64,000 bases of DNA from Pseudomonas triclosanedens (GTDB lineage: Bacteria; Pseudomonadota; Gammaproteobacteria; Pseudomonadales; Pseudomonadaceae): assembly GCF_026686735.1 (NCBI RefSeq), contig NZ_CP113432.1:186001-250000 (forward strand), read 5' to 3'. How positions within the stretch are numbered: position 1 is the first letter of the stretch; each line of letters starts with the position of its first letter. The notes beneath the pieces were generated by a model. That model saw nothing but the letters and a program-made list of their open reading frames with translations. It made no database searches and was not told where the DNA came from. The position numbers and the translations under genes are program-made. Below are positions 23,138 to 64,000 of this stretch, piece after piece.

Positions 23138-23267
23138 GAATGGCTGGTGAAGCCCTTCGATGCTCCTTTGCAGTGTTTAGTGTTGGCAGATTACTGGACC
23201 CCGCCCTAGCGGTCCGGACTTAAACCCCGAACTTCCCCCTCCCCATACGAAGCTCGGGGTTTTTTTT
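23138..23267 (+). ncRNA. ersA: ErsA-like regulatory small RNA
   Basis: The polA-engB spacer holds an AlgU-type promoter and, about 130 bases later, a strong terminator. This gives a transcript close to the 132 nt reported for P. aeruginosa ErsA, an envelope-stress Hfq-dependent sRNA encoded at this very position. The predicted RNA has C- and U-rich unpaired stretches (GGACCCCGCCCTAGCGG, CTTCCCCCTCCCC) able to pair with Shine-Dalgarno regions. No protein-coding frame fits. The exact 5' end and targets cannot be fixed from sequence alone; ErsA is reported to act on algC and oprD in P. aeruginosa. Confidence 0.82.
23225..23267 (+). terminator. Terminator of the ErsA-like sRNA
   Basis: CCCCGAACTTC pairs with GAAGCTCGGGG (11 bp, one mismatch) and eight T follow. 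The 3' end of the sRNA should fall at about 23267, ten bases from the convergent engB stop. Confidence 0.88.
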
Positions 23268-23276
23268 GCCTGCGAT

Positions 23277-50268: not shown

Positions 50269-50284
50269 TGGCATCGATATTGCT
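50269..50284 (+). promoter_or_regulatory. Sigma54-type promoter of the fliD operon
   Basis: TGGCATCGATATTGCT matches the RpoN consensus TGGCACG-N4-TTGCW, with GG and GC ten bases apart. The predicted start is about 50295, just before the AAAGGGG ribosome site of fliD. The -12 C lies 29 bases from the ATG. Confidence 0.75.
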
Positions 50285-50311
50285 CTTCGGGCAGCAAAGG
50301 GGTGTTTTCAG

Positions 50312-51652
50312 ATGACCACCATAGATTCCGACTACGTCAAACAGATGGCCCAGCAGTTGGCGACCTACGAGGTCCAGAACGGGCTGAACAAGGCTGACCG
50401 CAACAAGGCTTCGTACCAGTCGCAGCTCTCTGCCGTGACCGCGCTCGAGTCCGCGCTCAAGACCTTCTCCAGCGCTGTGAAGGGCCTCAACGGCACCGAC
50501 GCGAGCATGCTGGTCAACAGCGCCACGATGAGCAAGGACGGCTACCTGAGCGCCAAGGTGGGCAGCACTGCCGTGGCCGGCAAGTACGATTTCTTCGTCG
50601 AACAACTGGCCACTTCTCACCAGATGTCCTTCTCCGGCCTGCAGGCCGGCGATATCGATACCCAGGGCACCCTGACCCTGACCCAGAATGGCAAATCCTT
50701 CGACATCGACCTGAGCAAGATCGATAGCGACGGCGACGGCAGCAACTCGATGGAAGAGCTGGCCGCGGCGATCAACAAGGCCGCCGACAACACCGGCGTG
50801 AAAGCCACACTGGTGCGCAGCAATGGCCAGGTGTCCCTGGTTCTCGGCGCGGAAAAGAGCGGCGCGGCGAATGCCATCGGCATCACTCTCAGCGGCACCT
50901 CCACCGCCAACAACGCCTTCGAGAACGCACTGGCCAACCCGCAGGAATTGTCCAAGGGGCAGGACGCCCGCGTTCGTCTGGGTGGCGAGAACGGCATGTT
51001 GCTGACCAACGACAGCAACACCTACGACAACATCATCGATGGCGTCAGCGTCACCTTCACCCAGGCGCAGAAGGCGGGCGAGCTGCCGATCTCCATGACC
51101 ATCGATCAGGACAAGAGCTCGACCACCAAGAAGGTGCAGACCTTCATCGATGCGTTCAACGCCCTGGCCAGCCAGATCGATACGCTCACCGCCAGCGGCG
51201 ACCAGAACGGCAACGCCCGTGGCGCCCTGGCCGGCGACTCCAGCGTGCGCGCCATCGAGAACAGCCTGAACCAGTTGCTGCGCACCTCCTTCGGTGGCGC
51301 CAACCTGATCAACTTCGGCATCAGCGCCGACCGTAACGGCAAGCTGACGCTCGACTCGACGCGCTTCGAGAAAGCCATCGCCGCCGACCCGGAGGGCCTG
51401 GACAAGCTCTTCGTCGGCAAGGGCAACCTGCTCGACAGCGTGGACAAGAACCTGGCGCTGTACACCAACGCCACCAATGGCGTGATGAAGTCCCGCAAGG
51501 ACACGCTGAACAACAGCCTGCGCCGCGTGAACGATGACTACGACACGCTGCAGAAGCAGTACGACAGCTATTACGCGCGCTACCTCAAGCAGTACACCTC
51601 GATGATGCAGACGATGCAGTCGATGAGTCAGACCAGCGGGATGTTCGGATGA
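50312..51652 (+). CDS. fliD: Flagellar hook-associated protein 2 / filament cap FliD (LafB-type)
   Basis: FliD forms the pentameric cap that folds exported flagellin at the filament tip. The 446 residues have the FliD N-terminal helix region (MTTIDSDYVKQMAQQLATYE). A central Ser/Thr/Gly-rich domain resembles a hook-associated domain, and the C-terminal FliD_C region (ISADRNGKLTLDSTRFEKAI) and final coiled coil (DYDTLQKQYDSYYARYLKQY) follow. It heads an operon of eight flagellar genes in lateral-system order and overlaps fliS by four bases. It is distinct from the polar P. aeruginosa fliC-flaG-fliD arrangement. Confidence 0.92.
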   Translation: MTTIDSDYVKQMAQQLATYEVQNGLNKADRNKASYQSQLSAVTALESALKTFSSAVKGLNGTDASMLVNSATMSKDGYLSAKVGSTAVAGKYDFFVEQLATSHQMSFSGLQAGDIDTQGTLTLTQNGKSFDIDLSKIDSDGDGSNSMEELAAAINKAADNTGVKATLVRSNGQVSLVLGAEKSGAANAIGITLSGTSTANNAFENALANPQELSKGQDARVRLGGENGMLLTNDSNTYDNIIDGVSVTFTQAQKAGELPISMTIDQDKSSTTKKVQTFIDAFNALASQIDTLTASGDQNGNARGALAGDSSVRAIENSLNQLLRTSFGGANLINFGISADRNGKLTLDSTRFEKAIAADPEGLDKLFVGKGNLLDSVDKNLALYTNATNGVMKSRKDTLNNSLRRVNDDYDTLQKQYDSYYARYLKQYTSMMQTMQSMSQTSGMFG

Positions 51653-52047
51653 CCGGCTACGCAATGAACGAGAGCTACGACAGCTACCGGATGGTCGACC
51701 TGGAGGCCAAGGCGGCCGCCTCGTCGCCCTATGAACTGGTGCTGGTGCTGTTCGACGGCCTGCTCGACGAACTGGCCCGTGCCCGCGGGCACATCGAGCA
51801 CAAGCGCTACCAGCAGAAGGGCCGCTCCCTGGAGAAGTGCCTGAACATCCTCAATGGCCTGAACGGCGCGCTCGACTATGAGAACGGCGGCGAGGTCGTT
51901 CAGGGGCTGGCTCGGCTCTACGACTACTGCATCTATCGCCTCTCCGACGTCAGCGTTTCGCTGGATGTCGAGGGCATCGATGAAGTGGTGCGCCTGCTGG
52001 GCATCCTGCGCGAGGGCTGGGAGGGCGTGAGTGCGGCACGTGGATGA
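51649..52047 (+). CDS. fliS: Flagellin export chaperone FliS (LafC-type)
   Basis: FliS binds the flagellin C terminus in the cytoplasm and prevents early polymerisation. The 132 residues are all-helical. The start has YDSYRMVDLEAKAAASSPYE (family SPxxLxxxLxDG-like LVLVLFDGLLDEL) and a helix KCLNILNGLNGALDYENGGE. It overlaps fliD upstream and fliT downstream. Its client is presumably the 300-residue flagellin encoded at 58.3 kb. Confidence 0.9.
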   Translation: MTGYAMNESYDSYRMVDLEAKAAASSPYELVLVLFDGLLDELARARGHIEHKRYQQKGRSLEKCLNILNGLNGALDYENGGEVVQGLARLYDYCIYRLSDVSVSLDVEGIDEVVRLLGILREGWEGVSAARG

Positions 52048-52348
52048 TCGCCAGCGCCTGCTGGAGCTATACGAACAGCTCGGCGGGGCGCTGCAGCGCA
52101 AGGACTGGAACGCAATGGGGCAGGTTGACCTGGCGATCCGCGCGCAACTGGTGGCGATGTCCTCGCAACCAGGGTTGGCAGCCGACGTGCTGTTGGCCAA
52201 GAAACGCTTGAAACACCTGCATGAACAGGCTTCGCAGGCATGTGCCGAAGAGTGCGAGCGCCTGCGCCGTCTGCTGTTGTCGCACCTGGAATACGCGGAA
52301 GGCCGTTCCGCGTACATGCAGGTGGAAATGTTCCAGGAGAGTCGATAG
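52031..52348 (+). CDS. fliT: Putative FliD chaperone FliT (LafD-type)
   Basis: The 105-residue helical protein starts at GTG 52031 (GGGAGGG five bases upstream) and overlaps fliS by 17 bases. It has three or four amphipathic helices (QRLLELYEQLGGALQRKDW, LLAKKRLKHLHEQASQACAEE). Sequence likeness to FliT is weak. The call rests on length, fold prediction and position between fliS and fliK, as in laf loci. FliT would chaperone FliD and may modulate regulators. Confidence 0.7.
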   Translation: MRHVDDRQRLLELYEQLGGALQRKDWNAMGQVDLAIRAQLVAMSSQPGLAADVLLAKKRLKHLHEQASQACAEECERLRRLLLSHLEYAEGRSAYMQVEMFQESR

Positions 52349-52351
52349 ACC

Positions 52352-53497
52352 GTGATCCAGTTGCCGATCCAGCCTGCCGCCATCACCACCGATAGCCCGG
52401 TCGCCGATGCCCAGCCGCGCGATGCCCTAGGCACTGTCGCGAGCATCGCAGGATTCCGCGCCCAGGCCGCGCAGGGTCGGGCGATCACGGTGCAGTCGTT
52501 CCTGGCGCAGTTCGATACGGCTCGTCAGGAAGAACAGCCTGAGACGGCGCAGATTCCATCGCCGGCATTGCTGCCCGGGCCTGTGGAGGAACCGACGGAC
52601 AGCGTCGATCCGCAGCAGCCGGTGCGCGAGGAAGGCTCGCCGTCCGGCGCGGAAGCCTGGCTGGCCGGGATGCTCGGCCAGGCCGGCCTGACCGTGCAGG
52701 CCCGCGACAATCCGCAGGCGCAGAGCGCCACGCGGATTGCCGGATTCGCCACCCAGGCGGTGGACATCCGTGCTCCGCAGCCCGGCGCCGGCGCCGGCAC
52801 CGCGCCGTTGGCCGCTGTCCAGCCGATGCCGGTCGGCGCGCAACCTGACGACACCGAGCCAGCCAGTGCGCCCGCACCGCGCGAGGCGACCCAGAGCCAG
52901 GCGCAGACACTGCTGCAACAGCACCTGGCGAGCGCCGCGAGCGCGCCAGATGCCGCTGCCGCGCAAACTCCTGTCGCCGTGCCGCTGGACCCGCGCCTGA
53001 GCGTCGCGGACGGCAGCGCGCCGCCCACCACGTCCGCGCCAGGCACGCTGGCGCTGGACAAACCGTTGCACCTCAAGGGCAACGACGCTCACTGGGGCGA
53101 GCAGATGGTCAGTGCGCTGCGTGACAACGTCGAGCTGCAACTGAACCAGCGCGTGCAGAACGCTACGATCCGCCTCGACCCGCCGGAGCTGGGCAGCCTG
53201 GAAATCCTCGTGCGTCATGAGGCCGGCCAGCTCAACGTGCAGATTTCCGCGTCCCACGGCGACGTAGTGCGCATGCTCCAGCAGACCAGCGACCGACTGC
53301 GCCAGGAACTGGTCGGGCAGAACTTCCTGCAGGTCAACGTGCAGGTCTCCTCCGATACCCAGTCCGGCCAGTCGGGCCAGCAGAACCGCCAGCGCTTCGA
53401 GCAGGAACAGGCCACGGTCGCCACCAATCCGCGCGACGCGCAATCGGGCGAGCGCGCTGCGCCGCGCCTCGACAGCGATGTACTGATCACCGTGTAG
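52352..53497 (+). CDS. fliK: Flagellar hook-length control protein FliK (LafE-type)
   Basis: FliK is exported during hook assembly and switches secretion from hook to filament substrates. The 381 residues start at GTG 52352. The N-terminal two-thirds are disordered and rich in Ala, Pro and Gln, as in ruler proteins. The C-terminal Flg_hook domain has RLDPPELGSLEILVRHEAG and VVRMLQQTSDRLRQEL. It lies three bases after fliT. The length of the disordered part would set hook length for this system. Confidence 0.88.
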   Translation: MIQLPIQPAAITTDSPVADAQPRDALGTVASIAGFRAQAAQGRAITVQSFLAQFDTARQEEQPETAQIPSPALLPGPVEEPTDSVDPQQPVREEGSPSGAEAWLAGMLGQAGLTVQARDNPQAQSATRIAGFATQAVDIRAPQPGAGAGTAPLAAVQPMPVGAQPDDTEPASAPAPREATQSQAQTLLQQHLASAASAPDAAAAQTPVAVPLDPRLSVADGSAPPTTSAPGTLALDKPLHLKGNDAHWGEQMVSALRDNVELQLNQRVQNATIRLDPPELGSLEILVRHEAGQLNVQISASHGDVVRMLQQTSDRLRQELVGQNFLQVNVQVSSDTQSGQSGQQNRQRFEQEQATVATNPRDAQSGERAAPRLDSDVLITV

Positions 53498-53541
53498 GCC
53501 GCAGGCGGCCCGTACCCTCACAGGATTATTCGAGAAACACC

Positions 53542-54018
53542 ATGTCCACGTCGCGTCTCGTTGTACTGATGCTCATCGTGAATATCGCCGTCGTGCTGGG
53601 TGGCGTGTTCGTCAACTACCAAATGATCAAGTCGGCCAGCCTTGCGCCTGCCACGCCCACGGCCGAAGGGGACAAGGCCGAGGCTGGCGATGAGTCAGAA
53701 AGCGCCGAGTACCTCTTCGTGCCCGTGGAGAAGATCATCGTCAGTTCCCGTGGCGAAGACCGCGAGCACTACTTCGTGATCGACCTGGTGCTCCAGGGGC
53801 GTTCCGACCAGGAGCGCAAGAAGCTCGAAAGCGTGGCACCGATGGTGCGCAGCTCGGTGGTCGCCAACCTGACCCCGGAGAAGTTCGAGACCCTGCGCGC
53901 GATGCCCATCGGCGATGTGCAGCAGCGTCTGGAGAAGGCCCTGCTCGACGACTTCGCCGCACGCAAGGTGGTGGTGCCGTTCGAGCACGTCCTGCTCAGC
54001 AAGATGATCGTCCAGTAA
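53542..54018 (+). CDS. fliL: Flagellar stator-associated protein FliL (LafF-type)
   Basis: FliL is a single-pass membrane protein that surrounds the stators and stabilises torque at high load. The 158 residues have an N-terminal helix (about 7-29, LVVLMLIVNIAVVLGGVFV). A charged linker and a periplasmic SPFH-like domain (YLFVPVEKIIVSSRGEDREHYF and onwards) follow, ending HVLLSKMIVQ. It sits between fliK and fliA and seven bases ahead of fliA. This neighbour pattern is that of laf loci, where FliL goes with the stator genes, not the fliM/fliN cluster. Confidence 0.88.
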   Translation: MSTSRLVVLMLIVNIAVVLGGVFVNYQMIKSASLAPATPTAEGDKAEAGDESESAEYLFVPVEKIIVSSRGEDREHYFVIDLVLQGRSDQERKKLESVAPMVRSSVVANLTPEKFETLRAMPIGDVQQRLEKALLDDFAARKVVVPFEHVLLSKMIVQ

Positions 54019-54024
54019 GCCGCC

Positions 54025-54780
54025 ATGCACGCCCTTCGCGAAGCGGCACTCGACTACGGCAGCACCTACGCCGACAGCGGCGGAGGCGGCCACGCGCGCT
54101 TGTCTCCGGCCGCCGAGCAGCGCTGGATGATGCAGTACCTGCCGCTGGTGCGGCGCATCGTCAGCCAGTTGTCGCTGCAGGCCAACCAGGTGCTGGATCG
54201 TGAAGACATGGAGCAGATCGGCCTGATGGGCCTGCTCGAAGGACTGCGTCGCTACGGCGAGCCCGACGAGCAGTTCGGCCGCTTCGCCGCGCTGCGCATC
54301 CGTGGCGCCATTCTCGACGAACTGCGCCGCCAGGACTGGCGCCCGCGCCAAGTTCGCCAGCAGGCACACAAGGTGCGCGACACCATCCGCGCGCTGGCTC
54401 GCCAGCTCGGCCGGATGCCCAGCGACGACGAAGTACTGGCCGCTACCGGGCTCGATGAAGCCGGCTACCAGGACTACCTGCGCGCCGAATCCTCCGAGGC
54501 CATCGAGAGCTTCGATGCGCTGCTGCAGAGCGGCCAGGACGGCATCCAGGGCAGCGGCGACGTGCTGGAAGAGCGCGTGCTCAAGGAGCGTCTGCTGGCC
54601 CAGGCGCTGGCGCGTCTCAACGAGCGTGAGCGACTGATTCTCAACCTGTACTACCAGCACGAGCTGAATCTCAAGGAGATCGCGCTGGTGCTGGAACTGA
54701 CCGATGCGCGTATCTGCCAGCTGATGAAGCAGGCGATCGGCAAGTGCAGCCGATTCCTCAACGACCCCGACAGCCCCTGA
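54025..54780 (+). CDS. fliA: Flagellar sigma factor FliA (sigma28, LafS-type)
   Basis: Sigma28 directs late flagellar promoters. The 251 residues have region 2 (QYLPLVRRIVSQL, EDMEQIGLMGLLEGLRRY, RIRGAILDELRRQDWRPR), region 3, and region 4 with ALARLNERERLILNLYYQ and the helix-turn-helix LNLKEIALVLELTDARICQL. It lies between fliL and motA, as lafS does in lateral systems. A polar FliA of Pseudomonas is instead downstream of fleN. Its anti-sigma factor FlgM is not seen in this window. Confidence 0.92.
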   Translation: MHALREAALDYGSTYADSGGGGHARLSPAAEQRWMMQYLPLVRRIVSQLSLQANQVLDREDMEQIGLMGLLEGLRRYGEPDEQFGRFAALRIRGAILDELRRQDWRPRQVRQQAHKVRDTIRALARQLGRMPSDDEVLAATGLDEAGYQDYLRAESSEAIESFDALLQSGQDGIQGSGDVLEERVLKERLLAQALARLNERERLILNLYYQHELNLKEIALVLELTDARICQLMKQAIGKCSRFLNDPDSP

Positions 54781-54792
54781 AGAACCCGACTT

Positions 54793-55665
54793 ATGCAGAA
54801 AATCATCGGTGCCCTGATCATCATCGCCTGCGTGCTCGGCGGCTACGCGATGGCCAACGGCGACATGCGTGCGCTCTGGCAGCCGGCGGAAATCCTGATC
54901 ATCCTCGGCGCCGGCCTGGGCACCCTGGTGGTTGCCAACCCCCGTGAAGTGCTGCTGGAAATGTGCTCGCAGATCAAGGGCGTGTTCGTCTTCAAGCGCC
55001 GAGGCGAGGAGTTCCAGCGTCAACTGCTGATGCTGCTCTACGAACTGCTGGAAATGGTCGATGTGGGAGGCCTGAAGGTGCTCGATGCGCACATCGAGGA
55101 GCCGGAGCAGAGCGACCTGTTCGCCAAGTACCCGCTGATCCTCCAGGAAAAGAACCTGATGGCGTTCATCGCCGACAACTTCCGCCTGATGGCGATGGGC
55201 AAGATCAGCGCGCACGAGCTGGAAGGCTTCCTCGAACAGGAGCTGGACGCGATGGAGCACGCGCTGCTGCAGCCGTCCAAGTCGCTGCACAAGGTCGGCG
55301 AGGCGATGCCGGGCTTCGGCATTCTCGCGGCGATCATGGGCATCATCATCACGATGGGCAACATCGGCGGCTCGGTGGCCGAAATCGGCGCCCACGTCGC
55401 TGCCGCGCTGGTCGGCACCTTCTTCGGCATCTTCGTCTGCTACTGCCTGATGGACCCGCTTTCCAACGCGATGGCGCAACGGGTGAAGACCGAGCTGTCG
55501 GCGCTGGAATGCGTGCGAACCACGCTGGTCGCCCACGTTGCCGGCAAACCCACGCTGCTGGCGGTGGACGCCGGCCGCAAGCTGATCGAGCAGGACGTCA
55601 AGCCGGCCTTCAAGCAGCTGGAAACCTGGGTTACCCGCTATGAGGAAGAGCGGGACGTCGCATGA
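54793..55665 (+). CDS. motA: Flagellar stator protein MotA (LafT-type)
   Basis: MotA is the five-fold stator subunit around MotB. The 290 residues have four membrane helices (about 4-22, 32-50, 170-192, 203-225). The cytoplasmic torque loop holds FKRRGEEFQRQLL and LEQELDAMEHALL, and the MotA/TolQ family helix is VGEAMPGFGILAAIMGIIITMGN. The ending is charged. It overlaps motB by four bases (ATGA). Loop residues and neighbours are of the proton-driven lateral type, but the ion cannot be fixed by eye. Confidence 0.93.
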   Translation: MQKIIGALIIIACVLGGYAMANGDMRALWQPAEILIILGAGLGTLVVANPREVLLEMCSQIKGVFVFKRRGEEFQRQLLMLLYELLEMVDVGGLKVLDAHIEEPEQSDLFAKYPLILQEKNLMAFIADNFRLMAMGKISAHELEGFLEQELDAMEHALLQPSKSLHKVGEAMPGFGILAAIMGIIITMGNIGGSVAEIGAHVAAALVGTFFGIFVCYCLMDPLSNAMAQRVKTELSALECVRTTLVAHVAGKPTLLAVDAGRKLIEQDVKPAFKQLETWVTRYEEERDVA

Positions 55666-56660
55666 AGAAGCGTGCCGACAAGCATGGCGAGATCATCATC
55701 AAGCGCCGCAGCAAGAAGGGCCACGATGATGAGCATGGCGGCGCCTGGAAGGTAGCCTTCGCCGACTTCACTCTGGCGATGATGGCGCTGTTCATGGTGC
55801 TGTGGATCATCCATCCGCAGACCGAGCCGCAGCCGGTGGCCGTCGGCGAGCAGGATGCCAACCCCCTGGTGGATGGCGGCGCCGGTGTGTTCGACGGCGC
55901 CAGCCGCACGCCCATCGAGCTGGATGGCATGCCGCAGCCGGTGAAGACCCCGGACAAGCCCGCGCCGCAACTGGCCGCGGCAGGCAAGCGGGACGAGAGC
56001 AAGGACGGCACCGCCCACGACGCCGAGGCGCGCCAGTACGACAGCCGTGACGACCTGCGCGAGCTGGCGGAACTGATCCGCGAGGTGTCCGGCAAGGTGG
56101 ATGCGCTGGCCAACATCGAAGTGACTGTGGTGCCGCAGGGCCTGCGCATCCTGATCAAGGACGACCAGCAACGCTTCATGTTCGAGCGCGGCAAGGCCAC
56201 GCTCGATCCGCACTTCCAGACCCTGCTCGGCGCGCTGTCCGGGGTGCTGGCGAAAGTGCAGAACAAGCTGATCCTGAGTGGCCATACCGATGCGGTGCAG
56301 TACCGCCGGCCCGACGGCTACAACAACTGGAACCTGTCCGGCGACCGCGCCCTGCGTGCGCGCAACGTGATGGTGGACAGCGGGCTGCCGACCGGTCACG
56401 TGCTACAGGTGGCGGCGCAGGCCGACGTCATGCCGCTGCGTCCGGAAGACCCGGAGAACGGCGCCAACCGCCGCATCGAGATCCTGCTGCTGACGCGCCA
56501 CGCCGAAGGGCTGTACCGGGAAATCTTCGGCGAGAGTTATGCACAGGTGCATTACTCGGCTTCCGGGGCGCGGCTGGTTGCGCCCAAGGCCACCGTCGAG
56601 CCGCAGGCCGTGCCCGCTCCGGCACCAGTATCGGCGCCTGCTGCAGAGGACAAACCGTGA
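55662..56660 (+). CDS. motB: Flagellar stator protein MotB (LafU-type)
   Basis: MotB anchors the stator to peptidoglycan and conducts ions through Asp35 in FADFTLAMMALFMVLWII. The 332 residues comprise a cationic N-terminal tail (KKRADKHGEIIIKRRSKKG), one membrane helix, a plug/linker and an OmpA-like domain (RILIKDDQQRFMFERGKATL, LILSGHTDAVQY, GANRRIEILLLT). A Pro/Ala-rich tail closes it. It ends the fliD operon. The gene encoding the small membrane protein converges on it with five bases between stops. Confidence 0.93.
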   Translation: MKKRADKHGEIIIKRRSKKGHDDEHGGAWKVAFADFTLAMMALFMVLWIIHPQTEPQPVAVGEQDANPLVDGGAGVFDGASRTPIELDGMPQPVKTPDKPAPQLAAAGKRDESKDGTAHDAEARQYDSRDDLRELAELIREVSGKVDALANIEVTVVPQGLRILIKDDQQRFMFERGKATLDPHFQTLLGALSGVLAKVQNKLILSGHTDAVQYRRPDGYNNWNLSGDRALRARNVMVDSGLPTGHVLQVAAQADVMPLRPEDPENGANRRIEILLLTRHAEGLYREIFGESYAQVHYSASGARLVAPKATVEPQAVPAPAPVSAPAAEDKP

Positions 56661-56665
56661 GAATG

Positions 56666-57157
56666 TCAGTGCTCGTTGCGCAGCCGCTTGGGGCAGAACA
56701 CCTGGCGTGTTTCCACGCCGTACAGGCAACTGCTCAGGGGTTCGAGGGTGATGCGAGCGCCACGCTGACGGCCGTAGAGCAGGTTGAAGATCAGTTCGCT
56801 GTCCAGGCCGCTGTCGGCCTGCAGGTTGCTGATGCTGTTGTCTTCCACCTGCAACTGGTAGCGCCCGGTGAGGTCGCTGCCGACCTGGCCGGAGACTTCC
56901 AGGATGTTGGCGTCCTGCTGGATCATCGAGTAGAAGCGCCCCTCGTGGAACATGGTGGTCTGGGCGATATCCAATACCCGTCCGTTGCCGAGCACCACCT
57001 GGCCGGACGACGCGTAGCGGCCATCGATTGCCGAGGTGTTCTTGCCGTGTTTCCACAGCAGGCACAGCGCCAGGCTCAGACAGGCGATGCCGAACAGCGA
57101 GACGAGCAGGCAGCGGCGCGCCACGCCGGCTTCGCGGCGTAGGATCAGTTCAGACAC
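56666..57157 (-). CDS. Single-pass membrane protein paired with the ToxR-like regulator
   Basis: The 163-residue protein starts at GTG 57157 and overlaps the regulator gene by 13 bases, so translation is coupled. One membrane helix lies at about 15-34 (RCLLVSLFGIACLSLALCLL). The remaining ~125 residues should be periplasmic, with beta-strand character and a cysteine pair Cys144/Cys155 (SSCLYG, VFCPKRL). I do not recognise a family. Size, topology and coupling to a ToxR-type protein recall ToxS or similar partners that stabilise the periplasmic domain of the regulator; that is inference from arrangement, not sequence likeness. Confidence 0.75.
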   Translation of the reverse strand: MSELILRREAGVARRCLLVSLFGIACLSLALCLLWKHGKNTSAIDGRYASSGQVVLGNGRVLDIAQTTMFHEGRFYSMIQQDANILEVSGQVGSDLTGRYQLQVEDNSISNLQADSGLDSELIFNLLYGRQRGARITLEPLSSCLYGVETRQVFCPKRLRNEH

Positions 57158-58023
57158 TTGCGCAGCTGCTCCTGGGGAATCCGGGCGACCTGGCTCTCGT
57201 GGATCAGCAGCCAGTTGGAGTTGCCTTCTGGCTGCACGCAGACCAGTTCGTAGAAGCCCGACGTCATGTGCAGCAGCAGCCCGACCGGGCGTGTCGCCAG
57301 GTCGGCGAGCTGATGCGCCAGGGGGCGGGTGTCACGCATCAGCCGCTGCAGTTCCTGTTCGTCCTCTTCCACATAGGTGATCTGCAACGTGCCTAACTGC
57401 TGCTCGGCCGTGAACATCTGGCTGCGCACCTGCGTGTGGTAGAACGCCCCGGCCAGCACCAGCAGCCCGAGCGTACACAGGCTGCTGGCGACGAATTTCA
57501 GGCGCCGTGAATTCGACGGAATTCGCGGGGGCGGAATTTCCAGCAGTGCCGGCGACGGTGCAGGAGCGCTCTCTGCTTCCGATTCGGAAGGCGCTTCGCT
57601 GGCGAGGAACTGCGGGTTGAACATGTAGCCGCGACGCGGAAGCGTCTGGATGATCTGCCGTTGCTTCTCGTCCGCCAGCACCTGGCGCAGGGTATAGATC
57701 TGCTGGTTGAGGCTGCCTTGCCCGACGACCCGGTCCGACCACGCGTGGGTCAGCAGTTCATCGCGCGCAACTACGTCTCCCGGTGTCTGCAGCAGGCGTT
57801 CGAGTAGCCGGCTGCCGGAAAAGCCCAGGTCGATACGCTCCACCTGACCGTCGCGGACGAGGTCGAGTTGATAGAGCGCGGGATAGAACTGCGCGAGGCA
57901 GTCGGAACGGCCGGTGCGGAGGGTCAGGCAGGTAATCGCTGCCCGGTTGTCCGCAAGCGTTGGAGTGAGTGTGGTCATCTTGCCCTTGCGAGCCGCTTCC
58001 TTGACGGTTGCGGAAATCTCCAT
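57145..58023 (-). CDS. ToxR/CadC-type transmembrane transcriptional regulator (LafZ-like)
   Basis: The 292-residue protein has a cytoplasmic OmpR/PhoB-type winged helix (about 50-137: LLERLLQTPGDVVARDELLTH, VGQGSLNQQIYTLRQVLADE, IIQTLPRRGYMF). A Pro/Ser/Glu linker, one membrane helix (about 177-195) and a ~95-residue periplasmic domain with Cys262 and Cys290 follow. This is the ToxR plan of membrane-bound DNA binding with periplasmic sensing. E. coli and other Flag-2 loci carry a comparable transmembrane regulator gene (lafZ) beside the flagellin gene. Starts at 58023 and 57978 are both possible; 57978 has AAGGG upstream. It lies downstream of the flagellin gene on the same strand. Confidence 0.85.
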   Translation of the reverse strand: MEISATVKEAARKGKMTTLTPTLADNRAAITCLTLRTGRSDCLAQFYPALYQLDLVRDGQVERIDLGFSGSRLLERLLQTPGDVVARDELLTHAWSDRVVGQGSLNQQIYTLRQVLADEKQRQIIQTLPRRGYMFNPQFLASEAPSESEAESAPAPSPALLEIPPPRIPSNSRRLKFVASSLCTLGLLVLAGAFYHTQVRSQMFTAEQQLGTLQITYVEEDEQELQRLMRDTRPLAHQLADLATRPVGLLLHMTSGFYELVCVQPEGNSNWLLIHESQVARIPQEQLRKCLN

Positions 58024-58078
58024 TTGTCCAAGGAGGCAAAGGCATTATTTTGACGTCAGAAAAATGTGGGTGCAAGTT

Positions 58079-58122
58079 CTGAATTTTGCACACTCACGCT
58101 TGCATTTTTCATGCGAATTCAG
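58079..58122. promoter_or_regulatory. Inverted repeat upstream of the ToxR-like regulator
   Basis: CTGAATTTTGCA (58079-58090) and TGCGAATTCAG (58112-58122) are imperfect inverted repeats around a 21-base AT-rich centre. The perfect palindrome TGACGTCA lies closer to the gene at 58051-58058. Both precede the regulator start and are candidate operators, perhaps for autoregulation. Confidence 0.45.
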
Positions 58123-58172
58123 GAGGCGCGAGCCAGAGCGGGTCCGGCTGGTGGCAATGCGCCGTTAGTCTA

Positions 58173-58261
58173 TGTCTGCGGACCCGCAGACAGCAGAACG
58201 CCCCGACGAGCGGGGCGTCTTGCCGGGCGATGTTCGCGCAATGCGGAGGGCATTGCGCGAA
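58173..58261 (-). repeat. Three stable hairpins in the flagellin 3' region
   Basis: TTCGCGCAATGC / GCATTGCGCGAA (perfect 12 bp, 58233-58261), ACGCCCC / GGGGCGT (58198-58218) and TGTCTGC / GCAGACA (58173-58192) follow the flagellin stop on the minus strand. None has a clear T-run, although the second is followed by a T-richer stretch. They may end or stabilise the flagellin mRNA. Confidence 0.6.
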
Positions 58262-58321
58262 AAAGTCGACCTTGCAGGCTGTTCGCGATCTCGCGGGCGC
58301 GCCGCGGATCGCAGCGGGCAA

Positions 58322-59224
58322 TTAGCCCAGCAGGCCCATGATCATGCTGGGCATCTGGCCAGCTTGCTTGAGCATGGAGATGCCGGACTGCATCAGCATG
58401 GAGTTCTTGCTCATGTTCGCGCTTTCGGTGGCGAAGTCGGCGTCCATGATGCGGCCCTTGGACAGGTCGGTGTTGTCCTTCATGTTGGCCAGGTTGTTGG
58501 AGGTGTGCTGCAGGCGATTGATGTTCGCACCGAACTGCGCGCGCAGGGAGCCGATGTTGTCCAGCGCGGTGTTGATGGTGGTGATCGAGGTGTTGGCAGC
58601 GGTAGCGGTGGCGATTTCGGTGCCGGCAGTGGCTGGGGTGGTGGTGGCGTAGAAGGTGGAAACCTTGCCCAGGCCGGCGGTGCTGTCCAGAGCCTTGCCC
58701 AGTGCGGTGGCCATGTTCAGGGTCAGCTTCTCGCCAGCGGTTGCGCCGATCTGGAAGTCCATTGCCGCCGAGAACTTGCCTTTGGTGCCGTCGATGGCGG
58801 TGGCGTCGCCGAACAGGGTGTCACCAGCGTAGGTGGTGTTCTTCATGATGTTGGCCAGCTCGGAACCCAGCTGGTCGTATTCGGCTTGCAGGGCGTCACG
58901 GTCCTTGGTGCCGTTGGTTCCGTTCGCGGACTGGGTGGCGAGGTCCTTCATGCGCTGCAGGATATCGGTCACTTCGCTGAACGCGCCTTCGGCGGTCTGC
59001 AGCATCGAGATCGAGTCGCTGGTGTTGCGCATGGCAACGCTCATGCCGCGGGACTGGGCGTTCAGGCGGGTAGCGATCTGCAGGCCGGCGGCGTCGTCGG
59101 CTGCGGAGTTGATGCGCAGGCCGGTGCCCAGACGCTGCTGGTTGGTAGCCAGAGAGGTGTTGGTCTTGTTCAGGCTGGTCTGGGTGATCAGGGAGGAGTA
59201 GTTGGTTTGAATCGACAAGGCCAT
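58322..59224 (-). CDS. lafA: Short flagellin (lateral type, LafA-like)
   Basis: Flagellin is the filament subunit, exported by the flagellar type III apparatus. The 300 residues consist almost only of the conserved D0/D1 helices. The N-terminal half starts MALSIQTNYSSLITQTSLNK, with RLGTGLRINSAADDAAGLQIA. The C-terminal half has NINRLQHTSNNLANMKDNTDL and ends MPSMIMGLLG. The middle (about 140-200) is short, Ala/Thr-rich, without a large D2/D3 surface domain. Lateral flagellins of Aeromonas and Vibrio are similarly short, while polar Pseudomonas flagellins are longer. It follows flgA on the minus strand with its own sigma54-like element. Confidence 0.93.
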   Translation of the reverse strand: MALSIQTNYSSLITQTSLNKTNTSLATNQQRLGTGLRINSAADDAAGLQIATRLNAQSRGMSVAMRNTSDSISMLQTAEGAFSEVTDILQRMKDLATQSANGTNGTKDRDALQAEYDQLGSELANIMKNTTYAGDTLFGDATAIDGTKGKFSAAMDFQIGATAGEKLTLNMATALGKALDSTAGLGKVSTFYATTTPATAGTEIATATAANTSITTINTALDNIGSLRAQFGANINRLQHTSNNLANMKDNTDLSKGRIMDADFATESANMSKNSMLMQSGISMLKQAGQMPSMIMGLLG

Positions 59225-59251
59225 GGTGGACTTCCTGTATGAGCTGGATGA

Positions 59252-59267
59252 AGCCGGCGTTGTGCCT
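59252..59267 (-). promoter_or_regulatory. Possible sigma54-type promoter of the flagellin gene
   Basis: On the minus strand AGGCACAACGCCGGCT fits GGCAC-N7-GC of the RpoN consensus. Its -12 C lies 29 bases from the flagellin ATG, the same distance as the stronger element before fliD. No convincing sigma28 promoter was found in the 215-base spacer. Confidence 0.4.
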
Positions 59268-59439
59268 GCTGAAGGGGTAAGGCGACAGCTCTCGCGGAAG
59301 GATTAAATGGCCGGGTGAAAATTCTGGCGCGGAGATTCCGGCGCTCCGCCGCAGGCTCCGTTGCGACTGTGATTGCCTGGCATGGCTCGCACCAGCGAGC
59401 CTCGCTGTGATCACTGCGCTGCTGTGAGTACGGAGCGCA

Positions 59440-60237
59440 TCAGAAGATGCTGCTCACCACGCCCGACTCCACCACCTTGGCGTCGATGATTTTCTGGCTG
59501 CGCAAGTTCTTTACGCGGATCACGTCGTCCTGCTTGCCGTTGGCCATCGCCTCGCCGACGGCGCTGGCCTGGATGCCATCCTGGCTGGCGACGATCTTCA
59601 CCTGCTGGCCACGGCGGACCAGAGTGGCGCCGTCGAGCAGTGCCGGCGACAGCGGCTGGTCGGCGCGGATGCGGCGGCGAGCAGTCTTGCCGGCGACTTC
59701 GGCGATGTCGGTGAAGTAACCGCGCGGCGTCTTGCCGATGTCCAGCGGGGCGAGCTTGAGCTGGTTGGCGTCCAGGGTCTGGCCACGCTCGATTGCGCTG
59801 CTGGCGAACACGGCCGGCAGCATCACAGTGGACTGGCTGGTGAAGTACACGGGCCAGCCGGATTGCCCTGGGCAATCCGCTTCGAAGCGCCGCCGCGCGG
59901 TGGCGGAAGAGGGCGCCTCGCTGACGCGCAACTGTGGCTCGCGCGGGCACGCGGGAAGCTTGCCCAGGCTGTTGGGCAGGTTGTTGTCCACCGTGAAGGT
60001 CATGCCCTTCCAGCCCTGCGCGCGCGCCTCGTTCTTGAGTTCGCTGGCGACCTGGCGCTGGGCGGCGGCGTCCAGTTGCTGGCGGGCATCCTGGCCCCAG
60101 GCGAGCGGCGCGAGCAGCAGGAGGAAGCAGGCGGAAAAGGCCTTTCCGCTTCCTGTTCCGGGCTGGGCGGAAAGCGGAAACGCCGCGTTGCGCACGCTGT
60201 CGTAAGCGCCGCGAAAAGCCTTGTTAATCAATGACAT
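59440..60237 (-). CDS. flgA: Flagellar P-ring assembly chaperone FlgA
   Basis: FlgA is a periplasmic chaperone for P-ring (FlgI) assembly. From ATG 60237 (AAGG eight bases upstream) it has 265 residues. An N-terminal tail and signal helix (CFLLLLAPLAWGQ) precede the SAF-domain region (QTLDANQLKLAPLDIGKTPRG) and the conserved end (LVRRGQQVKIVASQDG, VRVKNL-like VIRVKNLRSQKII, GVVSSIF). An ATG at 60261 is possible but overlaps the flgB promoter. It is divergent from flgB. Usual neighbours flgM and flgN are absent; the next gene downstream is the flagellin. Confidence 0.87.
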   Translation of the reverse strand: MSLINKAFRGAYDSVRNAAFPLSAQPGTGSGKAFSACFLLLLAPLAWGQDARQQLDAAAQRQVASELKNEARAQGWKGMTFTVDNNLPNSLGKLPACPREPQLRVSEAPSSATARRRFEADCPGQSGWPVYFTSQSTVMLPAVFASSAIERGQTLDANQLKLAPLDIGKTPRGYFTDIAEVAGKTARRRIRADQPLSPALLDGATLVRRGQQVKIVASQDGIQASAVGEAMANGKQDDVIRVKNLRSQKIIDAKVVESGVVSSIF

Positions 60238-60255
60238 GAAGCGGCCTTCAGGGGT

Positions 60256-60271
60256 CGGCATGGATTGTGCT
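60256..60271 (+). promoter_or_regulatory. Sigma54-type promoter of the flgB operon
   Basis: CGGCATGGATTGTGCT has GG and GC exactly ten bases apart and GGCA and GCT of the RpoN consensus. It lies 39 bases before the flgB ATG, in the flgA-flgB divergent spacer. Confidence 0.6.
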
Positions 60272-60309
60272 CTAACGCCACGCACGCCGAACGATGAGAG
60301 TGGGTGGGA

Positions 60310-60675
60310 ATGAGTATACGGTTTGACGAGACGCTGGGTATCCACGAGAGAGCCCTCTCGCTGCACATGCAGCGCAGCGAAATCCTGGCCTCCAATCTGG
60401 CCAACGAAGACACGCCCGGCTTCAAGGCGCGTGACATCGATTTCGCCGCCGAGATGCAGCGCCAGGGCAGCGCGCCGGCACTGCTCGCCAGCACCAGCCC
60501 CGAGAGCCTGGATCTCAAGTATCGCGTTCCCAACCAGCCCTCCCAGGATGGCAACAGCGTCGAGCTGGCAACCGAACAGGCGGAGTTCTCGCGCAATGCG
60601 ATGGATTTCCAGACCAGCCTGACCTTCCTGACCATGAAATTCCGCGGCCTGAAGCAGGCCATTGAAGGACGTTGA
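60310..60675 (+). CDS. flgB: Flagellar basal-body rod protein FlgB
   Basis: FlgB is the proximal rod subunit. From ATG 60310 it has 121 residues. The conserved rod motif is SEILASNLANEDTPGFKARDIDF, and the C-terminal helix is QTSLTFLTMKFRGLKQAIEG. The GTG at 60304 would add two residues. It is first in flgBCDEFG and precedes flgC by four bases. The product is exported by the flagellar apparatus without a cleaved signal. Confidence 0.94.
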   Translation: MSIRFDETLGIHERALSLHMQRSEILASNLANEDTPGFKARDIDFAAEMQRQGSAPALLASTSPESLDLKYRVPNQPSQDGNSVELATEQAEFSRNAMDFQTSLTFLTMKFRGLKQAIEGR

Positions 60676-60679
60676 CGTC

Positions 60680-61108
60680 ATGGCTTTCGATTCCATCTAC
60701 CGCATCGCCGGATCCTCGATGAACGCGCAGACCGTGCGCCTGAACACCGTTGCCAGCAACCTCGCCAACGCCGACTCGGCAGCCGCCAAGCCCGAGGACG
60801 TGTACCAGGCGCGCAAGCCGATGTTCGCTGCCGTCTACGAGAACGACCAGCTCACCCGTGGCGCCGGCATGGGCGGCGCCCATGTGCAGGTGCTCGACGT
60901 GGTGACCTCCGGCCGTGCGCCGCAGCGCCGCTACGAGCCGGGTAGCCCGCTGGCCGACGCCACCGGCTACGTCTACTACCCCGACGTCAACGAGATCGAG
61001 GAAATGACCGACATGATGTCCGCCAGCCGCAGCTTCGAAACGGGCGTCGAGGTGCTCAACCGGGTCAAGAGCATGCAGTCCAGCCTGCTGAAACTGGGAG
61101 ACGCCTGA
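60680..61108 (+). CDS. flgC: Flagellar basal-body rod protein FlgC
   Basis: FlgC is a proximal rod subunit with 142 residues from ATG 60680 (AAGGA upstream). The N-terminal rod motif is SSMNAQTVRLNTVASNLANADS, followed by YVYYPDVNEIEEMTDMMSASRSFETGVEVL, the FlgC C-terminal signature. The flgD ATG overlaps its stop (TGATG). It assembles with FlgB, FlgF and FlgG. Confidence 0.95.
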   Translation: MAFDSIYRIAGSSMNAQTVRLNTVASNLANADSAAAKPEDVYQARKPMFAAVYENDQLTRGAGMGGAHVQVLDVVTSGRAPQRRYEPGSPLADATGYVYYPDVNEIEEMTDMMSASRSFETGVEVLNRVKSMQSSLLKLGDA

Positions 61109-61779
61109 TGAGCACGGTGAACGGCACCAGCGGCAACAACAGCACCAGCGGAAGCTCCAGTGAGCTGCCCAGGCAGGCGGTGAACCTCGGTGAGCTGAGC
61201 GACATGGAAAACAGCTTCATCACCCTGCTGGTCGCGCAGGTTCAGTACCAGGACCCGACCAAGCCGGTGGACAGCACCGAGTTCATCAACCAGTACTCGG
61301 CGATGGCGCAGGTCAAGAGCATGCAGAACATGACCACCCTGCAGCAGAACAACCTGGTGCTGATGGACAACCTGCAGACCCTCACCGCCGCCGGCCTGGT
61401 CGGCCAGGAAGTGAAGGTCAGCGCGGACAGCCTGCAGCTCGACGCAGAGAAGGTCAGCGGGCAGATCGCCCTGCAACACGCCTCGGCCACCACCGTACTG
61501 CAGCTCACCGATGCCAACGGTATTCGCACCGACATCGCCCTCGGGCCGCAGGAACCGGGCAGCGTGCCTTTCACCGTGGATCCCGTGGCGCTCGGCCTCA
61601 AGCCTGGCAAGTACACCCTGGCGGTGAAGACCGAGAGCGGCGAAGCGCCCGGTGTCGAGGTTTCCGGCCTGGTCAACAACGTCCGCGTCAGCGCTGACGG
61701 CCCGGTGCTGGACGTCCAGGGCGCAGGCTCGGTGCCGTTCTACAAGATCGTCGAATTCAGTCAGGGCCAGGCCGCCTGA
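61108..61779 (+). CDS. flgD: Flagellar hook assembly scaffold FlgD
   Basis: FlgD caps the growing hook and is lost when the hook is complete. The 223 residues start with a Ser/Gly/Asn-rich segment. The conserved MENSFITLLVAQVQYQDPTKPVDSTEF motif region is split here as NSFITLLVAQVQYQDPTKP and onwards. Tudor-like and FlgD Ig-like domains follow (QLTDANGIRTDIALGPQEPG). It overlaps flgC by one base and precedes flgE by 36 bases. Confidence 0.94.
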   Translation: MSTVNGTSGNNSTSGSSSELPRQAVNLGELSDMENSFITLLVAQVQYQDPTKPVDSTEFINQYSAMAQVKSMQNMTTLQQNNLVLMDNLQTLTAAGLVGQEVKVSADSLQLDAEKVSGQIALQHASATTVLQLTDANGIRTDIALGPQEPGSVPFTVDPVALGLKPGKYTLAVKTESGEAPGVEVSGLVNNVRVSADGPVLDVQGAGSVPFYKIVEFSQGQAA

Positions 61780-61815
61780 GCGCCTGCTTCCCACCTTTGA
61801 GGATGAGATAACGCC

Positions 61816-63003
61816 ATGAGCTTCAACATCGCCCTGACCGGCCTGAACGCCGTCACCCAGCAACTCGATACCATCAGCCACAACATCGCCAACTCCGGCA
61901 CCGTGGGCTTCAAGTCCTCGCGCACCGAGTTCGGCAGTGTCTATGCCGACAGCAAGGGCATGGGCGTGGAAGTCACTGGCACCACCCAGAGTATCAGCCA
62001 GGGCGGTTCGCTGGTGTCCACCAACCGCAATCTCGATCTGGCCATTTCCGGCGGCGGCTTCTTCGTGGTCAAGGGTGGCAATGGCGACGTGCAGTACACC
62101 CGCGCCGGCGTCTTCGGCCAGGACAAGAGCAACTTCCTGATCAACGCCACCGGCCAGCGCCTGCAAGGCTATCCGACCGACGCCGCCGGCAACCTGCTGG
62201 TGGGCACCGTGTCCGACCTGCAGGTGAAGACCGCCAACCTGCCGGCCAAGGCCACCGACAAGCTGGAGTTCGTCGCCAACCTCGACTCCAACGAGAAGAC
62301 CCCGAGCGTCGGCCCGTTCGATCCGCAGAACGTCGCCACCTACAACTCCACCTACACCAGCAAGATCTACGACTCCCAGGGCAAGGAACACACCCTGACC
62401 CAGTACTTCGTGCTGACCTCCACCAACAACTGGGATGCCCACTATTACGTCGACGGCAACGCCGTGGGCGCCACCCAGGGCCTGCAGTTCGCGCCGAATG
62501 GCTCGCTGGCCTCGCCGATCGCCGCCGTGCCGGTGAACTTCACCCTGCCGGGCGTCGACCCGATGAGCATTTCGCTGGACTACACCGGCACCAGCCAGTA
62601 CGGCTCGGACTTCGTGGTCACCACCAACCGCACCACCGGCTATGCCGCCGGCGAGCAGACCGGCATCGCGGTGGAGAACGACGGCAAGGTCTACGTCAAC
62701 TACAGCAACGGCCAGCGCATGCTGCAGGGCCAGGTTGCGCTGGCGAACTTCATCAACGTCGGCGGGCTGCAGAACGAGAGCGGCACCGCCTGGAGCGAGA
62801 CCTCCGCCTCCGGCACCCCGCTGGTTGGCGTTCCCGGCATCGGCCAGTTCGGCAGTCTCTCGGCGGGCAACCTGGAAGGTTCCAACGTCGACATCACCCA
62901 GCAACTGGTGGGCCTGATGGAAGGCCAGCGCAACTACCAGGCCAACACCAAGGTGATGACCACCGACAAGGAACTCACCCAGGTGCTGTTCGCAGCGATC
63001 TGA
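61816..63003 (+). CDS. flgE: Flagellar hook protein FlgE
   Basis: FlgE builds the universal joint. The 395 residues have the N-terminal ALTGLNAVTQQLDTISHNIA and SGTVGFKSSRTEF motif, the D1/D2 domains (YNSTYTSKIYDSQGKEH, YFVLTSTNNWDAHYYVDG), and the C-terminal QLVGLMEGQRNYQANTKVM helix. The size is that of compact hook proteins (E. coli 402). The start has GAGGATGAG upstream. Confidence 0.95.
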   Translation: MSFNIALTGLNAVTQQLDTISHNIANSGTVGFKSSRTEFGSVYADSKGMGVEVTGTTQSISQGGSLVSTNRNLDLAISGGGFFVVKGGNGDVQYTRAGVFGQDKSNFLINATGQRLQGYPTDAAGNLLVGTVSDLQVKTANLPAKATDKLEFVANLDSNEKTPSVGPFDPQNVATYNSTYTSKIYDSQGKEHTLTQYFVLTSTNNWDAHYYVDGNAVGATQGLQFAPNGSLASPIAAVPVNFTLPGVDPMSISLDYTGTSQYGSDFVVTTNRTTGYAAGEQTGIAVENDGKVYVNYSNGQRMLQGQVALANFINVGGLQNESGTAWSETSASGTPLVGVPGIGQFGSLSAGNLEGSNVDITQQLVGLMEGQRNYQANTKVMTTDKELTQVLFAAI

Positions 63004-63015
63004 TAGGGCGCAAAC

Positions 63016-63744
63016 ATGGACCGACTCGGCTACACCGCGATGACCGCCGCCAGCCGCAGCATGTCTGCGCTGGATGTGCGCGCCAACAACCTGGCCAACG
63101 TGAACACCCCGGGCTTCCGGGCAGACCTGGAGCACGCCACCGCCGTCGACGTAAAGGGCGCGGGCTACGACAGCCGCCACCTGGCGCGCATCGAGAGCAG
63201 CGGCGTGGACATGACGCCTGGCACCCTCATGGCCACCGGGCGCGACCTCGATTTTGCCATCCAGGGTCGTGGGCTGATCGCCGTGGCGAATGGCGGCAGC
63301 GAGGCGTACACGCGCCAGGGCAACCTTGAGATCGATGCCGACCGCCAGTTGATGATCAACGGCCGCGCCGTGCTCGGCGAGGGCGGTCCGATCAACCTGC
63401 CGGAGTACGACGCCATCGCCATCGGCAGCGACGGCACGATTTCCATCATGCCGCGCGGCGACTACCTGATGACCGACGTGGACCGCATCAAGCTGGTCGA
63501 TGCCCCGGCCGCCACGCTGGTGAAGAACGCCCAGGGCCTGCTGGTGAGCAAGGATGGGCAGAACGTCGCTGCCAGCGAAGACGTGCGCCTGGTCTCCGGG
63601 CACCTGGAGGCGAGCAACGTTTCGGCCATCGACCAACTGGTGGGCACCATGAGCCTGAATCGCCGGTTCGAGACCCAGGTGAAGATGATGAAAGCCGCCT
63701 CGGACCTGGCCGAAGCGGGCGACCGATTGATTCGCGGCGGCTGA
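63016..63744 (+). CDS. flgF: Flagellar basal-body rod protein FlgF
   Basis: FlgF is a proximal rod subunit with 242 residues. The rod motif is [21 protein letters not shown]. The middle has DLDFAIQGRGLIAVANGG and YTRQGNLEIDADRQLMINGR, and the C terminus has GHLEASNVSAIDQLVGTMSL. These are standard FlgF/FlgG hallmarks. It lies 12 bases after flgE and 25 bases before flgG. Confidence 0.94.
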   Translation: MDRLGYTAMTAASRSMSALDVRANNLANVNTPGFRADLEHATAVDVKGAGYDSRHLARIESSGVDMTPGTLMATGRDLDFAIQGRGLIAVANGGSEAYTRQGNLEIDADRQLMINGRAVLGEGGPINLPEYDAIAIGSDGTISIMPRGDYLMTDVDRIKLVDAPAATLVKNAQGLLVSKDGQNVAASEDVRLVSGHLEASNVSAIDQLVGTMSLNRRFETQVKMMKAASDLAEAGDRLIRGG

Positions 63745-63769
63745 TCCGCGCGCATAGCAGGAGCGAGAG

Positions 63770-64000
63770 ATGAGTTCGGCACTTTGGGTCAGCAAGACCG
63801 GCCTGGCGGCGCAAGACACCGCCATGTCGACCGTGGCCAACAACCTGGCCAACGTCAACACCGTCGGCTTCAAGAGCGACCGCGCGGTCTTCGAGGACCT
63901 CTTCTACCAGGTCGAACTGCAGCCTGGAGCACAGGCCGATCAGGTCAACACCGTGCCGTCGGGCATTCAGCTCGGCAGCGGCGTGCGTGTCGTCGGCACG
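63770..64000 (+). CDS. flgG: Flagellar distal rod protein FlgG (partial, cut by window end)
   Basis: ATG 63770 (AGGAGCGAGAG upstream) opens a frame that runs off the right edge after 77 codons. The visible part reads as the rod-protein start: [39 protein letters not shown], then [15 protein letters not shown], which matches FlgG. The rest, and flgHIJKL expected after it, lie outside the window. Confidence 0.92.

Follow-up and report, generated by a model that had tools for sequence, protein, structure and literature searches.

Which kind of flagellum is encoded at the right end of a 64,000-nucleotide stretch of the Pseudomonas triclosanedens chromosome, and by what route did its genes come to lie there? 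The stretch, termed the window, covers genome positions 186001-250000 of one 6,245,384-base contig (NZ_CP113432.1), and coordinates given without a label are window positions. The original prediction, made from the letters alone, had read the locus as a lateral, laf/Flag-2-type set in a Pseudomonas chromosome, one that would likely serve surface swarming, lateral-type flagella being the kind that Vibrio uses to crawl on surfaces. Our analysis bears this reading out, as the full gene set, a LafK-type activator and the protein trees agree, and on sequence grounds the strain very probably carries a complete lateral flagellar gene set beside its normal polar one.

Extending the sequence to the right delineated a cluster of 35.4 kb (genome 236312-271674), of which window positions 50312-64000 are the left part. 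It contains 38 flagellar genes together with one ToxR-like and one ToxS-like gene, and all 40 of the 40 open reading frames are open without internal stops. The gene flgG, in which the window was correctly said to end, runs on to genome position 250555 and is followed without interruption by flgH, flgI, flgJ, flgK, flgL and lafW; flgN, flgM, fliJ, fliI, fliH, fliG, fliF, fliE and a gene for a 466-residue sigma-54 activator follow on the minus strand, and fliM, fliN, fliP, fliQ, fliR, flhB and flhA on the plus strand, up to genome position 271674. Thus flgHIJKL, fliEFGHIJ, fliMNPQR-flhBA and the LafK-like activator, proposed as the check on the locus, were all found, while flgM and flgN turned up beside fliJ, not beside flgA, where flgM was first missed. 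Measured against the 39 Flag-2 gene positions listed in PMC6993521, all positions are occupied, LafD by place only and LafW by weak similarity, and the fortieth gene is the extra, ToxS-like one. The LafW assignment is weak because its identity to E. coli LafW is 26% over 0.8 of the length and no family model matched.

Within the window, the genes fliD-fliS-fliT-fliK-fliL-fliA-motA-motB with flagellin, flgA and flgBCDEFG are present as named and in the order first described. Family models back the naming of FliD, FliS, FliK, FliL, FliA, MotA, MotB, flagellin and FlgA, whereas fliT stands by place only; the initial list had lacked two genes (56666-57157 and 57145-58023) that lie on the minus strand, after motB and before the flagellin gene. 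The features are as follows:

50269-50284, plus strand: sigma-54-type promoter site before fliD, TGGCATCGATATTGCT
50312-51652, plus strand: fliD (lafB), filament cap; PF07195/PF02465, NCBIfam FliD models under cut-off
51649-52047, plus strand: fliS (lafC), flagellin chaperone; TIGR00208 above cut-off, PF02561
52031-52348, plus strand: fliT-like place (lafD), by position only; unmatched in Pfam and NCBIfam at E 0.001; dN/dS 0.12 against G154
52352-53497, plus strand: fliK (lafE), hook length; PF02120
53542-54018, plus strand: fliL (lafF); PF03748
54025-54780, plus strand: fliA (lafS), own sigma-28; TIGR02479 above cut-off, best NCBIfam model PRK12427, yet under the curated cut-off of that model
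54793-55665, plus strand: motA (lafT), stator; TIGR03818 above cut-off
55662-56660, plus strand: motB (lafU), stator; best NCBIfam model LafU PRK06778 with 263.9 bits, under its cut-off of 383
56666-57157, minus strand: ToxS-like putative periplasmic partner; one transmembrane helix and a predicted beta barrel
57145-58023, minus strand: ToxR-like membrane regulator at the LafZ place; winged helix-turn-helix, single transmembrane helix
58322-59224, minus strand: lafA, lateral flagellin; PF00669 and PF00700, 48% identity to E. coli LafA
59440-60237, minus strand: flgA; PF13144
60304-60675, plus strand: flgB; 53% to E. coli Flag-2 FlgB, sigma-54-type site upstream
60683-61108, plus strand: flgC; 63% to E. 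coli Flag-2 FlgC
61108-61779, plus strand: flgD; 41% to E. coli Flag-2 FlgD
61816-63003, plus strand: flgE, hook; groups with E. coli Flag-2 FlgE (99/100) to the exclusion of the strain's polar copy
63016-63744, plus strand: flgF; about 50% to E. coli Flag-2 FlgF
63770-64000, plus strand: flgG, cut by the window end; TIGR02488 above cut-off on the full gene

A separate polar flagellar set, for which the original prediction had suggested a search, lies near 2.07-2.14 Mb. An FlhA family search of the single contig yielded two flagellar copies, rod-protein matches clustered around 0.25 Mb and around 2.08 Mb, and FlgM copies were located at 2.07 Mb and 257.6 kb. Relatives of fliDS, fliEFG, fliHI, fliNPQR-flhBA, fliA and the Mot proteins lie at 2.09-2.14 Mb, a polar FliM is also present, and the genome encodes three MotB-type proteins.

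We compared the two sets in protein trees, in which the named laf rows from outside the Pseudomonadaceae were those of E. coli Flag-2 and Grimontia only. In the FlhA tree (140 rows, after exclusion of duplicates of the strain's own copies, of rows below 600 residues or with stops and of four of six SctV rows), 31 Pseudomonadaceae lateral rows, some of them identical, formed one clade with a support of 100 in the Shimodaira-Hasegawa-like approximate likelihood-ratio test. E. coli Flag-2, Grimontia marina and one further gammaproteobacterium join this clade with a branch support of 100. The 16 Pseudomonadaceae polar rows form a separate clade (100) near other gammaproteobacterial rows, and E. 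coli Flag-1 was placed among betaproteobacteria, an affinity already reported for enteric flagella (PMC8042155). This tree and the nine-protein tree described below are quick trees without bootstrap. The smaller trees, from which rows below 60 bits or with stops were excluded, gave the same picture, the lateral rows together with E. coli Flag-2 being set apart from the strain's own other copies for FliA (64 rows, 100/100), MotB (with E. coli LafU, 100/100) and, apart from the own polar protein, FlgE (14 rows, 99/100). In the part of the MotB tree holding the lateral clade, the nearest outside row was the strain's own MotB-type protein at 5.51 Mb (94/80); the FlgE row of L122, which is truncated where its stretch ends, fell outside the lateral clade, and the FliF tree agrees, but with a single and very long polar row. 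The tree check that had been proposed for FliA, MotB and FlgE, here with FlhA added, thus groups the cluster with E. coli Flag-2; the strain's own proteins of the polar, FleQ-type Pseudomonas flagellum fall in separate clades.

The laf-type FlhA, defined by at least 76% identity with the next matches at no more than 52%, is no rarity of this strain: it was present in 82 of 398 sampled Pseudomonadaceae genomes, distributed over 8 of 19 genera, and in 18 of the 25 genomes of the window's genus, whole clusters being examined in far fewer genomes. One further laf-type copy (62%) was detected among 370 sampled gammaproteobacterial genomes, our own included. In the window's species group, the cluster lies between an SMR gene pair and a pair consisting of a PAS-domain protein and a PAS-bearing sigma-54 activator (genome 272269-274883). 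Two genus-mates without laf (G024, G107) both have the left flank of adenosine deaminase, SulP and SMR genes. In G024, this flank is separated from the right one by about 7 kb that, judged by eye, contains phospholipid synthesis genes (L183, 7400-15000), so the place occupied by laf in the window's strain is variable. The PAS protein and second sigma-54 activator were considered as part of the laf set and rejected, since G024 has both at the same place without laf. No repeats flanking the cluster ends longer than 9-base matches were found.

The citronellolis-type members of the same genus, so labelled because their FlhA is the same or almost the same as in named loci, have their laf cluster away from the SMR and PAS flanks, and its flhA block lies on the opposite side of the fliD block compared with the window's strain, whose block order is unlike that of E. 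coli Flag-2 and of the other species groups' clusters examined. In the nine-protein tree, two genomes from a different genus join the window's lineage (support 100), and the citronellolis lineage goes with those of thermotolerans (97) and straminea (100). Since the second laf lineage sits elsewhere in the citronellolis-type members of the same genus, the likeliest and simplest history appears to be horizontal exchange between species of the family; ancient duplication, or relocation with loss, is less probable.

How do other readings of the locus compare? A second FlhDC-dependent flagellum of the Pseudomonas ogarae F113 or Azotobacter type would have the precedent of a full duplicated set in Pseudomonas (PMC5031763), but a search for FlhD at E 0.1, which did detect the E. 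coli control, found none in the genome (FlhC was not searched for), a LafK-type activator is present, and FlhA goes with E. coli Flag-2, with Flag-1 among the betaproteobacteria in trees without F113 rows. We consider the F113 type as good as ruled out because FlhD is absent, in line with the initial view that the locus is not FlhDC-dependent. Second FlhA copies of the F113 type were also sought in the sampled genomes; six had two FlhA matches, none of them laf-type, and at 33-35% identity to the polar protein we infer the second copies to be injectisome SctV. A duplicated or rearranged polar set would share the same core genes, yet the own polar FlhA is only 51% identical to the lateral one, to which lateral copies of other genera reach up to 87%, and the two sets lie in separate clades, leaving this origin a vanishingly small probability and agreeing with the claim that the locus is distinct from the polar Pseudomonas set.

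The set could be genuinely lateral and nonetheless silent, decaying or functionless: 22% of the Enterobacterales flag-2 strains lack at least one gene (PMC6993521), the second set of F113 is described as silent in culture (PMC5031763), and a relative, Stutzerimonas xanthomarina, has a broken arrangement. We deem this improbable here, with all 40 reading frames open, promoter sites conserved and the ratio of nonsynonymous to synonymous substitution rates (dN/dS) against G154, of the same genus, well below 1 throughout (0.02-0.46 across the 40 genes); FliK is the most diverged gene (63% identity, dN/dS 0.42). More weight, if still well short of an even chance, goes to a laf set that was ancestral to the Pseudomonadaceae and was moved and lost many times with no exchange between species. 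Such a history would fit the single clade of Pseudomonadaceae laf FlhA, its presence in 8 of the 19 sampled genera and the GC content of the cluster (65.2%), equal to that of window positions 1-50000 (65.1%) with no foreign signature seen. Against it, the two laf lineages of the window's genus occupy different sites in different block order and do not group: holding the genus as a single laf clade cost 170 log-likelihood units (approximately unbiased test, p 3.3e-7), the tested group being the genus code plus closely matching named loci, chosen after the FlhA tree was known. Likewise, the window's strain shares more lateral FlhA identity with G028, of another genus (86%), than with its genus-mate G158 (83%), and the polar FlhA reverses this ranking (90% versus 94%), in a comparison covering 13 of the 20 named Pseudomonadaceae loci, with FliH for 21 of 25 rows.

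The LafK-type sigma-54 activator (466 residues), of a kind that Flag-1 lacks, shows 52% identity to E. coli LafK along 0.7 of its length, and the cluster carries its own sigma-28/FlgM pair and its own MotAB. A sigma-54-type site scoring at least 11 of 13 stands at the same place before fliD in 9 of 9 clusters, where 3.3% of shuffled stretches score at least 10, and a site before flgB recurs in 8 of 8 clusters, with about 3% of shuffled stretches reaching the cut-off; these counts are not independent trials, as the clusters are related. The start of the locus originally given, 50269, is the first base of the fliD site TGGCATCGATATTGCT. Elsewhere, such sites are rare in the upstream stretches (flgA 2/8, fliJ 2/10, lafK 1/16) or were not found in the comparative scan (fliM 0/16, lafA 0/10), from which the lafW row of L031 was excluded. 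The whole-region count equals that of shuffles (3 versus 2.9), and the informative scan is the comparative one, confined to upstream stretches. Based on these data, sigma-54-dependent middle promoters are predicted before fliD and flgB. A search of the locus for sigma-28 promoters gave nothing above shuffled sequence.

The regulator at the LafZ place resembles LafZ with 28% identity over 153 columns (E 3e-15) and has a winged helix nearest to that of ToxR, as well as a single membrane anchor; the rows for its comparison covered residues 28-142 only. Downstream and overlapping it lies the ToxS-like gene, whose predicted model fits the barrel fold of ToxS and VtrC at a sequence identity of 7-14%. 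Foldseek alone did not place this model, the best matches being retinol-binding proteins (E 0.029) with VtrC at rank 13 (E 0.09). In 8 of 8 other Pseudomonadaceae clusters, the LafZ-place gene is followed by one for a small protein whose model takes the ToxS/VtrC fold, and no such gene follows the LafZ-type gene in the one E. coli Flag-2 locus examined. These models indicate that the LafZ-place regulator is ToxR-like, with a conserved, added partner of predicted ToxS fold. The arrangement is similar to ToxR/ToxS and VtrA/VtrC of Vibrio in its ToxR-type winged helix, its single transmembrane helix and the overlapping gene for a ToxS/VtrC-type fold, and differs in that the pair lies within a Pseudomonadaceae flagellar cluster. 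With about even odds, the ToxR-like protein would be the likeliest input tying the lateral system to an envelope or surface cue.

Whereas the own polar FliM has the N-terminal EIDALL motif, the own lateral FliM starts without it and matches in Pfam the C-terminal FliMN_C model only. With rows other than our own trimmed to 5 residues ahead of our start, EIDALL was absent from the first 50 residues in all 27 Pseudomonadaceae lateral FliM rows (0/27), in E. coli Flag-2 and in Grimontia, and no che genes were found within the cluster. This predicted N-terminus fits the account in PMC8042155 of lateral motors, whose C-ring is given as divergent and non-chemotactic. After flhA, on the opposite strand, lies a gene for a protein made up of PilZ alone, bearing the RxxxR and DxSxxG motifs; of the 20 named Pseudomonadaceae loci, 18 have a PilZ match within 3 kb downstream of flhA. 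In Shewanella putrefaciens, the PilZ-type protein MotL slows lateral flagella at high cyclic di-GMP (PMC8203827). Both are PilZ-only proteins with these motifs adjoining a lateral cluster, but here the gene is found beside flhA on the other strand, not after motB.

Taken in order of action, an early step would turn on fliMNPQR-flhBA and lafK-fliEFGHIJ, for which no sigma-54 site was found, LafK with sigma-54 RNA polymerase would then fire flgBCDEFGHIJKL and fliDSTKLA-motAB, and export of FlgM would release FliA for expression of the late genes. The resulting motors, devoid of the polar FliM N-terminal motif, would turn with no chemotactic switching, and the neighbouring PilZ protein may tune them via cyclic di-GMP in the manner of MotL. 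The ToxR-like winged helix on its membrane anchor, together with the ToxS-fold partner, would feed an envelope or surface cue into the system. More speculatively, we propose that Pseudomonadaceae lateral flagella might be gated by this in-cluster ToxR/ToxS-type receptor: the barrel would bind a hydrophobic or envelope-stress surface cue, its ToxR-like partner, the true LafZ, would activate early laf transcription, and the cassette would travel with the flagellum between species.

Among known systems, Flag-2 of E. coli VCSW7 shares with the cluster the 39 gene positions, the sub-blocks flgBCDEFGHIJKL-lafW, fliJIHGFE-lafK and fliMNPQR-flhBA and a LafZ-type regulator near lafA, at identities of 63% for FlhA, 70% for FliI, 64% for MotA and 52% for LafK. 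It differs from the present cluster, where the lafB-U block and lafA lie beside flgA, flgNM beside fliJ and the PilZ gene beside flhA, and where the ToxS-like gene is extra. The likeness to Vibrionaceae laf systems is the grouping of FlhA with that of Grimontia marina, and LafK and the LafA-LafU type genes are shared with the lateral systems of Vibrio parahaemolyticus, Aeromonas, Plesiomonas and Shewanella. Like the cluster, the second flagellum of P. ogarae/fluorescens F113 is a full extra set on a Pseudomonas chromosome, but that set is FlhDC-dependent (PMC5031763).

The lateral flagellum itself is of a known kind, to which the conserved, predicted ToxS-type partner is an addition. Lateral flagella of P. 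stutzeri are familiar from microscopy in the older taxonomy. A lateral flagellin (LafA) of this species is already mentioned in PMC5773237, and a 2021 review of Pseudomonas flagella (PMC8036289), in the part considered, names a second, FlhDC-type apparatus only for F113. No title or abstract start on a Pseudomonas laf cluster was among the matches listed in the open-access literature, outside which most subscription papers lie. None of the matches listed dealt with how widely laf occurs in Pseudomonadaceae, with two laf lineages inside a single genus or with a ToxS-type partner next to a ToxR-type LafZ, and these features may be new. In many environmental species, what is called the Pseudomonas flagellum may be two machines, and surface work in such species need not be polar-flagellar. 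The presence of two laf lineages in one genus offers a clean test of whole-flagellum transfer between species, and, for the old question of what triggers lateral flagella, the ToxR/ToxS reading of LafZ supplies an input that can be tested.

Several minor observations concern related loci and the remainder of the window. In a genome of another family (G640, L137-L138), a lateral-type cluster with an FlhA identity of 60-62% has no matches to LafK, FliM and the ToxR-like protein at E 1e-4, and its regulation may therefore differ. Three tandem flagellin genes occupy the lafA place in L132 (G090, genus g5), compared with one in the window. The laf cluster of S. xanthomarina (L020) looks broken, as shortened flgJ and flhB matches adjoin and the genes between are gone there, and in Pseudomonas sp. 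21 (L011) the left-flank genes follow flhA in reverse order, which would fit an inversion of the laf cluster or of its neighbours. The window contains no tRNA, and its sole Rfam match above the gathering score is the small RNA ErsA (Pseudomon-1) at 23160-23275.

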